Shown: in pieces, positions 59,966 through 62,151 of the stretch
Position numbering within the stretch: the first letter of the stretch is position 1
Layout of the letters: every line of letters begins with the position of its first letter
Origin: an uncultured Opitutia bacterium
Lineage (GTDB): Bacteria > Verrucomicrobiota > Verrucomicrobiia > Opitutales > UBA953
Reading direction: 5' to 3'
Length of the DNA stretch: 64,000 nucleotides
Assembly (NCBI GenBank): GCA_903840355.1
Contig: CAIMFJ010000004.1
Span: forward strand, 372,001 to 436,000
Translations under genes and position numbers: made by a program
Notes under the pieces: generated by a model
What the model saw: the letters and a program-made list of their open reading frames with translations, nothing else
Told to the model about the DNA's origin: nothing
Databases searched by the model: none

Positions 59966-60433
59966 ATGGCAGCACGCCGCGAACAAAGTTTACCCGAAGT
60001 CAGCAATCCTAAGGCTGGGCGGGATTATTTTATCGGGCCAACCTATGAGGCTGGTCTGGTGTTGTTGGGTACCGAAGTGAAGTCTTTGCGCCTCGGGCGG
60101 GCGAACATCGCCGATGCGTTCATCCGGATTAGTCCCAAGGGGCCGATGCTCTACCACGCCCACATTGCGGAGTATGATTTTGGGAATCATAATAATCACG
60201 ACCCTTATCGTTCTCGGCTGTTGCTCCTTAAGCGTGCCGAGGTTGCGAAGCTCACCGCCGAGATTCAGTCCGGAGGGCAAGCGATTGTCCCCTTAAAAAT
60301 TTATTTCAAACACGGTTTGGCCAAATGCCTCTTGGCGGTAGGTAAGGGCAAGAAGCAGTATGATAAACGCCAAGATATTAAAGAGCGTGATGCTAAACGC
60401 CAAATCTCTCGAGCTCTCAGCCGCCGCCGGTGA
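59966..60433 (+). CDS. smpB: SsrA-binding protein SmpB
   Basis: SmpB brings tmRNA to stalled ribosomes. The 155-residue protein has the family core: AGLVLLGTEVKSLRLGRANI (about 29-48), AEYDFGNHNNHDPYRSRLLL (about 68-87) and the basic C-terminal tail with KKQYDKRQDIKERDAKR. Its stop overlaps the trmL GTG start (GTGA, 60430-60433). A tmRNA gene often lies close by; none is recognisable in the 357 nt after trmL. Confidence 0.97.
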   Translation: MAARREQSLPEVSNPKAGRDYFIGPTYEAGLVLLGTEVKSLRLGRANIADAFIRISPKGPMLYHAHIAEYDFGNHNNHDPYRSRLLLLKRAEVAKLTAEIQSGGQAIVPLKIYFKHGLAKCLLAVGKGKKQYDKRQDIKERDAKRQISRALSRRR

Positions 60434-60903
60434 AACCGCCTCTCCATTTAGTTTTATTACGTCCGGAGATTCCTCCCAACACGGGGAATGTGGGGCGCAT
60501 GTGTGCGGTGACTGGCTGCGTATTGCATTTGGTGCACCCGTTAGGTTTTAAAATCGACGATGCTAAATTGCGCCGGGCAGGCATGGATTATTGGCACGAG
60601 TTAGATGTCCGCCATCACGCTGATTGGCAGGCTTTCTTAGCGTCGCCCGGTCGCCCCATGCGACTCTGGCTTTTTTCGACCAAGACGACGAACGGTTTAT
60701 GGGATGTGGAATTTGCGGAGGGCGATGGTTTGGTGTTTGGGAATGAAGGTTCGGGTACGCCCGAAGAAATTCACGCGTGGTTCGGTCCGGATCGCACGGT
60801 GAAGATTCCGCACTTTAATGATAAAACTCGCTCGTTGAATTTATCTACCGCGTGCGGCATTGCGACTTACGAAGCACTGCGTCAGATTAAAACTCGTTCG
60901 TAA
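60430..60903 (+). CDS. trmL: tRNA (cytidine/uridine-34 2'-O)-methyltransferase TrmL
   Basis: TrmL methylates the wobble nucleotide of tRNA-Leu isoacceptors. The GTG start overlaps the smpB stop and gives 157 residues, the compact SPOUT length. Family motifs are PEIPPNTGNVGRMCAVTG (about 12-29), FGNEGSGTP (about 99-107) and the knot segment SLNLSTACGIATYEALRQ (about 136-153). It ends two bases before an A-run and a hairpin. Confidence 0.95.
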   Translation: MKPPLHLVLLRPEIPPNTGNVGRMCAVTGCVLHLVHPLGFKIDDAKLRRAGMDYWHELDVRHHADWQAFLASPGRPMRLWLFSTKTTNGLWDVEFAEGDGLVFGNEGSGTPEEIHAWFGPDRTVKIPHFNDKTRSLNLSTACGIATYEALRQIKTRS

Positions 60904-61260
60904 AAAAAACTTTTTCGCGGCGAGAAAGAATCGCCGAAAAAAGTTAACCGTCCTGGAGGTTTTCGCGGTGACTCGCCGCGATGAGCACACAACCCAACAA
61001 GCTATGAACAAACCATTCTCCAGAACGGGTTCCTTGGGGGAACTAGTCTGTTATGACAGATGGGGCAGGCCTTGGCAACTGACCCAGTGCTCTTAGGCAT
61101 AGGGTGAAAACCTTATTTTCAGGTGAGACGATCATCTAAATTCTGGCGGTAATAATTTTGCAACTAGTTAACCTAAAATTACTTAAGAATTTAAGACAGC
61201 TAACCTTTGCCGGTTTTTGGGCCCAAGGCTCTGGGTGGGTTTAAAGCCCCTAAGGGGCCT
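60904..61260 (+). ncRNA. Gene-free structured region, candidate non-coding RNA (about 60946-61265)
   Basis: This is the only stretch above 300 nt without a clear gene. It contains several small hairpins on the plus strand: CGCGG/CCGCG (60964-60968 with 60976-60980), GTTCC/GGAAC (61029-61033 with 61039-61043), TCTGT/ACAGA with loop TATG (61047-61051 with 61056-61060), a GGG-CAG/CTG-CCC stem with an internal mismatch (61062-61085) and GAAAA/TTTTC (61106-61110 with 61116-61120). It ends at a strong terminator. It lacks the hallmarks of tmRNA, RNase P RNA and SRP RNA. A 30-codon ATG frame lies at 61004-61096. The type of RNA, if any, is unknown. Confidence 0.4.
60908..60945 (+). other. Long hairpin after trmL
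   Basis: AACTTTTTCGCGGCGA (60908-60923) pairs, with a small bulge, with TCGCCGAAAAAAGTT (60931-60945), giving about 14 pairs and a 7-nt loop. The A/T part is inside the stem, and no T-run follows it, so termination is uncertain. Confidence 0.5.
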
Positions 61261-61274
61261 TTAAATATTTTTAA
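61240..61274. terminator. Bidirectional terminator between the structured region and the EamA gene
   Basis: TTTAAAG-CCCC and GGGG-CCTTTAAA (61240-61265) form an eleven-pair stem with one bulged base and a TAA loop. On the plus strand ATTTTT follows (61267-61272). The EamA gene stop (TAA, minus strand, 61263-61261) lies inside the stem. Confidence 0.75.
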
Positions 61275-62151
61275 GAAAAATAACGCCGGCGATCGCAATG
61301 GCTCCGCCCAGCCAAAGCCGCCCGCTCGGCCGCGTGCCTTCAACCACCCATTGCATGAGGAGCGCGATGAGTGGGGAGAGGGCGACGATGCTGAGGACTA
61401 CCGCGGCAGGATTGCCCGTGAGTGCCCATTGGTAGCAGGCCACGCCGAGCCCAGGACCGGCGAGGGCATTCATGATCATCCACCAAGGAGCCCGCTGGTA
61501 ATCATAAGGGGTGCGGACTTGTGCCCAAAGTTTTTTGCCCGGGTTTCGACTGAGCACGAAAAGGGCAACGATGGGTACGCCTCCGAGTAGGCGCACCCAC
61601 GCTTGGGCAATGCCGTCCGGAATAGTTTCGCCCACGGCAACACACGCCGCTTTGGCCAAGGGTGTGCTCACCGCACCACTCGCTTGACCTAGTGCCGCGA
61701 GGATAGCGAGGCCAACTCCAAGTCGCCAATGTTTGGTCATGCCCTCTGTGGGCGCACCGAGTGCGACGGCGACGCCGATAAGAATGACGAGCGAGCAAAT
61801 TAATTGTGACGTGGTCGGGATGTGACCGAGTGCTAAGTATTCAATGATGAGGGCAAAGGGCGCCGCTAAACACTGCATCAATAACATCGATAGTCCGGCT
61901 CCAATGCGCGGTAGTGCATGAAAGAGTGCAATATCACCCACGCCTAAACCCAACGCCCCGCCGAGGAGTAACCAAGTCCAGCCGGTGCAAAAGGGTTGGC
62001 GATGCGAGAGGAAAATCCACGCCGTAAAAATCAGGAAAGCGAGGCTGATGCGACCTAGGTTCGCAAGATCAGGCCCGTGGTAGGCCGAGCTGCGGCGGGC
62101 GCATGTTACCGACCACGCAAAGAAGACGGCAGCTCCGAGGGCGTAATTCAT
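61261..62151 (-). CDS. EamA/DMT-superfamily transporter
   Basis: The 296-residue protein has about ten membrane segments in two EamA repeats (about 2-135 and 150-294), the drug/metabolite transporter layout. Repeat 2 ends with LSPLIALLMQWVVEGTRPS (about 252-270), the conserved family segment. The substrate is unknown. Its start overlaps the hemW stop (ATGA at 62148-62151), so it is translated with hemW in the sufT-hemW operon although no functional link is obvious. Confidence 0.9.
   Translation of the reverse strand: MNYALGAAVFFAWSVTCARRSSAYHGPDLANLGRISLAFLIFTAWIFLSHRQPFCTGWTWLLLGGALGLGVGDIALFHALPRIGAGLSMLLMQCLAAPFALIIEYLALGHIPTTSQLICSLVILIGVAVALGAPTEGMTKHWRLGVGLAILAALGQASGAVSTPLAKAACVAVGETIPDGIAQAWVRLLGGVPIVALFVLSRNPGKKLWAQVRTPYDYQRAPWWMIMNALAGPGLGVACYQWALTGNPAAVVLSIVALSPLIALLMQWVVEGTRPSGRLWLGGAIAIAGVIFLKNI

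Follow-up and report, generated by a model that had tools for sequence, protein, structure and literature searches.

The convergent genes trmL and EamA are separated at this locus by a gene-free interval of 357 nt, and the question raised is whether this interval holds an RNA that has escaped description. The first of these genes encodes a SpoU-type RNA methylase (plus strand, 60430–60903; PF00588, E=2.6e-27) and the second an EamA-family transporter (minus strand, 61261–62151; PF00892, E=1.9e-22). No open reading frame inside the gap had a significant Pfam match, and the gene-free stretch described by the first-pass annotation was thus borne out. Convergent pairs of the same genome had a median spacing of 5 nt, with 3 of 51 pairs spaced at least 300 nt apart (crude gene caller, 464 kb of the genome scanned), so the gap is unusual for a convergent pair, as had been claimed. 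The accompanying claim that genes otherwise overlap or touch within the window (the whole 64,000-nt stretch of DNA analyzed) was overstated, since a crude caller gave five longer gaps there. The G+C content of the stretch was about 44%, compared to roughly 50–60% in its surroundings. An apparent gap of 645 nt with convergent genes on either side was also observed at G000:C4:465518–466162 using the crude gene caller.

Terminator-like hairpins were observed at both ends of the gap. At 60904–60945 (inverted repeats I5 and I10), the minus strand has a U8-tailed hairpin that is a likely terminator for EamA-derived transcripts; the hairpin itself, at 60908–60945, had been missed by the first-pass annotation. 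The strong terminator reported for the other end was present at 61240–61274 on the plus strand, where a G+C-rich hairpin followed by a T tail (I6/I7) likely acts as a terminator overlapping the EamA stop; it was unlisted by a consensus scan. With terminators opposed at the two ends, transcripts from either gene would traverse the whole gap. The entire gap folded more stably than its shuffles (z = -4.3 on the plus and -4.7 on the minus strand), but after removal of both end hairpins these values fell to -1.5 and -2.4, with equally stable folds in 7 of 100 shuffles, and roughly 10% of this genome's remaining gap strands scored equally well (47 gaps tested). The part from 60944 to 61030 alone gave z = -3.6 (plus) and -3.4 (minus). 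The strongest fold among the tested gaps was that of a 335-nt gap at L147:10382–10716 (G000:C4:350382–350716; z = -5.7), which had no Rfam match. Fold stability by itself is weak evidence, insufficient to justify a claim of structured RNA, and conservation in two congeners is the better evidence.

To find homologs, flanks from the genus were gathered via TrmL and EamA (222 kb) and the gap was used as a blastn query. Matches were observed in two congeners, G059 (78% over 100 nt, E=2.5e-13) and G058 (E=1.3e-10), compared to a best E-value of 2.7 for the shuffled-query control. The region carried by both corresponds to 60944–61120 of the window, and its copy number in its own genome is one. The element was present in 3 of the 55 genus genomes, and no convincing match was found in the remaining 52, many of which have EamA. 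A lack of conservation in close relatives, named earlier as grounds for rejecting the structured RNA, was therefore nearly what we found, except that G059 and G058 do match. An initial DNA search of 57 relatives and 387 phylum genomes returned nothing convincing because these two carriers lay outside those genome draws; L041, L047 and similar weak matches were dismissed as A+T-rich chance. A covariance model from the three carriers' sequences (R1) found no further convincing members among 55 genus, 79 family, 372 order and 387 phylum genomes, using strict filters and with the order and phylum sets being samples. Matches to R1 in G074, G018, G001 and G010 were mainly to a palindrome at the P4 hairpin (below), and were excluded from the homolog count. 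Searches of phages and plasmids, and for exact core patterns on viral contigs, also gave nothing convincing.

The shared core is predicted to consist of a helix (P1, 13–14 bp) closing over a hairpin (P2) and a 21-nt segment, followed by P3, a variable linker and P4. The 5' arm of P1 (14 positions, 60948–60961, starting CCGTCC) was kept in all three species, and the 3' arm lies at 61015–61028. Within P1 are the P2 hairpin TCGCGGTG-ACT-CGCCGCGA (60963–60981; inverted repeat I11), whose counterpart in G059 and G058 is displaced by 1 nt, and the near-invariant segment AACCCAACAAGCTATGAACAA (60991–61011), identical at 21 of 21 positions in G059 and 20 of 21 in G058, which is single-stranded on the plus strand and partly paired on the minus strand. 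P3, GTTCC-n-GGAAC, abuts P1 (61029–61043) and has an invariant stem and a loop differing in length by 1 nt. Beyond the linker, whose length varies, GGCA and the P4 hairpin TAGGGT-GAAA-ACCTTA (TAGGGTAAANACCCTA in relatives) occupy 61096–61115, the shared pattern being GGCATAGGGT...ACCCTA. A tentative P5 was read from the sequences at 61069–61098 (GCCT...AGGC here vs GCCGA...TCGGC in the other two carriers), and convincing conservation was absent from the A+T-rich stretch at 61120–61239. Both hairpins highlighted by the first-pass annotation as perfect fall in the part unconserved in relatives. The one at 61047–61060 on the plus strand, TCTGT-TATG-ACAGA, is indeed perfect; the one at 61062–61085, GGGGCAG...CTGACCC, has one G-A mismatch; both lie within the linker. 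By sequence comparison the informative parts are 60944–61043 and 61096–61115.

Identity between the window and the other carriers was 65–68% in P1–P3, 79–83% in the inner segment, 84–89% in P4 and 36–40% in the linker, and the adjoining EamA gene had a nucleotide identity of 63%, with 41% at third codon positions. Compensatory double changes occurred at two positions of P1 (AU/UG/CG and GC/AU) along with one wobble change, and three P1 positions were unpaired, in one species each. The number of pairs with double changes ranged from 2 (counting P1, P3 and P4) to 7 (RNAalifold), and the covariation value was equalled in 55 of 500 letter shuffles; this weakness follows from there being only three sequences, two of them closely related. 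The P1–P3 consensus fold gave a z of about -7 on either strand against 200 column shuffles, in a test where the P2 register was hand-corrected and the shuffling disregards dinucleotides. Taken together, the covariation and consensus fold of the three sequences are suggestive of RNA structure. As for the strand, our own count from the sequences gave five wobble pairs that form only on the plus strand and one that forms only on the minus strand, which favours plus. The minus strand is favoured by the adjoining U8 terminator a few nt past P1 and the constant EamA neighbor, which point to an EamA 3' UTR, and by the partial pairing of the invariant segment.

The neighbor common to all three carriers is EamA, and trmL lies directly upstream of the element in this genome only. 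In G059 and G058 the homologs had a fatty-acid hydroxylase gene (PF04116) on one side and, immediately on the other, the EamA 3' end; the gene order in G058 was trmL, hydroxylase, element, EamA. A U-tailed terminator was not seen by eye at the corresponding place in either sequence. G059 groups with the window species in the TrmL tree and G058 is separate, whereas in the EamA tree G059, G058 and G014 fall together (support 100/100), with the window separate. In G014, the sister of G058, the trmL-EamA spacing is 81 nt and the element was not found. These trees and gene orders fit, and suggest, the movement of a hydroxylase-element-EamA block between lineages, losses included. The slot after trmL in several congeners contained a gene resembling that for the 23S rRNA intervening-sequence protein (PF05635), e.g. 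L003:1552–1971 (E=3.3e-28; other loci assigned by eye), and degenerate, purine-rich repeats such as GGCTGAGTTGATGGC often came before it.

The palindrome TAGGGTAAANACCCTA was also observed away from this locus. Five copies with a spacing of 44–45 nt occurred in one G018 gap (L200:295–490, G018:C311). The other occurrences, at L199:1626, L201:1505, L203:1505, L138:1711 (G000:C4:161711) and L295:9407, comprised single copies in other congeners, one perfect copy in 2.04 Mb of the window's own genome, and one on a viral contig. From this distribution it looks like an operator or hairpin element existing independently of the trmL-EamA element.

Several other explanations of the locus were weighed. 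The position after smpB-trmL had led the first-pass annotation to guess at an RNA of the translation machinery, and tmRNA genes do sometimes lie near smpB. The proposed comparison with tmRNA, 6S, RNase P and SRP was run, with SRP examined through the general Rfam scan only, and no family matched at the locus: neither the window nor the homologs had a match at gathering score among the 4227 families of Rfam 15, a laxer scan of the window gave only chance-level matches (best E=2.9), and the covariance models for tmRNA (RF00023), RNase P (RF00010) and 6S (RF00013) did not match here. These three RNAs are encoded over cut-off elsewhere in the genome, at G000:C7:120862–121229 (152 bits), G000:C7:100641–101009 (205 bits) and G000:C8:240542–240705 (48 bits), respectively, which already refutes the guess for them. 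A tmRNA-like tag reading at about 61137–61170 was dropped once the true tmRNA had been located on contig C7. Most congeners with smpB-trmL are also without the element, and a hydroxylase gene precedes it in the other two carriers. Since the element tracks EamA and not smpB-trmL, a translation role is unsupported. A divergent housekeeping RNA is hardly credible. That the region holds a short conserved frame for translation, such as ATGAACAA... at 61004, is very improbable. Its ATG is invariant and MNxP..RTGS is held in common, but mismatches in this frame are most frequent at second codon positions, the frames that vary in the manner of third positions are interrupted by stops on both strands, an indel of 1 nt falls in the P3 loop, and a significant Pfam match was absent. 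No open frame with synonymous-biased change was encountered across the three carriers.

The gap could also be an ordinary spacer between convergent genes, consisting of A+T-rich filler plus a pair of opposed intrinsic terminators, its apparent structure then being due to the terminators and to chance. The stability excess does lie mostly in the end hairpins, other gaps fold equally well, and some of the 52 genus genomes that lack the element have a trmL-EamA spacing of merely 17–193 nt. We consider this explanation unlikely, as it leaves unexplained both a homology of E=2.5e-13 beside saturated third codon positions and the invariant segment, and the absence of a U-tailed terminator at this place in G059 and G058 also stands against it. 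Somewhat less likely again is an element acting at the DNA level, either protein-bound inverted repeats, with P4 as a possible repressor operator, or a mobile or decayed element of small size whose inverted ends measure 13 bp. Such an element would agree with the apparent movement of the EamA block and with the presence of the P4 palindrome by itself at other places: one G018 gap has it five times, and in G001/G010 it lies once near another gene. It agrees poorly with a single genomic copy at a constant place beside EamA, and with P1 arms that lie 53 nt from each other and differ in sequence between species but mostly retain pairing, which is unlike the usual operator.

We therefore favor, with moderate confidence, the reading of 60944–61120 as a candidate RNA about 175 nt in length that is structured, sits at the 3' end of EamA and may have a post-transcriptional role. 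For this part of the gap the earlier claim of an undescribed structured RNA was supported, by the homologs, some changes at paired sites and the lack of an Rfam match. The element is probably previously unlisted; it is absent from Rfam and narrowly distributed. It would be transcribed as part of an EamA 3' UTR ending at the terminator at 60904, or alternatively as a separate plus-strand RNA with its end near 61274. Acting after transcription, it may control how the EamA mRNA or a neighboring one decays or terminates; alternatively, it may work as a 3'-UTR small RNA with the invariant segment as contact site. The likeliest kind is a regulatory element of the 3' end or a small RNA from the 3' UTR, with the function inferred only. 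A switch of a new RNA class is improbable. In such a switch, CUAUG in the P1 loop would pair with CAUAG, located at the base of P4, and this pairing would alternate with the P4 hairpin, so that a signal could control the EamA mRNA through its 3' end. This complementarity of 5 bp is invariant in all three carriers.

Compared to known systems, the element shares with tmRNA (RF00023) a nearby smpB in this genome, but has no covariance-model match to it, and the genuine tmRNA is on contig C7. Candidate structured RNA motifs from intergenic comparative genomics (PMC11109978, PMC8632094) are similar in being intergenic and having conserved structure and no assigned function. Next to such motifs, the element differs in occurring in 3 species only, with correspondingly weak covariation. 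If transcribed, it would represent a family of RNA that Rfam lacks, linked to a transporter gene and so far seen in a single Opitutae genus. The case also shows how a narrowly kept structured element can escape whole-genome sampling across a phylum and come to light only when the flanks of its neighbor genes are compared. Bacterial small RNAs derived from 3' UTRs are a general kind located at the 3' ends of protein genes. The element differs from these in being known here from sequence alone and in matching no Rfam family, and resembles them in where it lies, at a protein gene's 3' end and with, on the minus strand, an intrinsic terminator directly after it.
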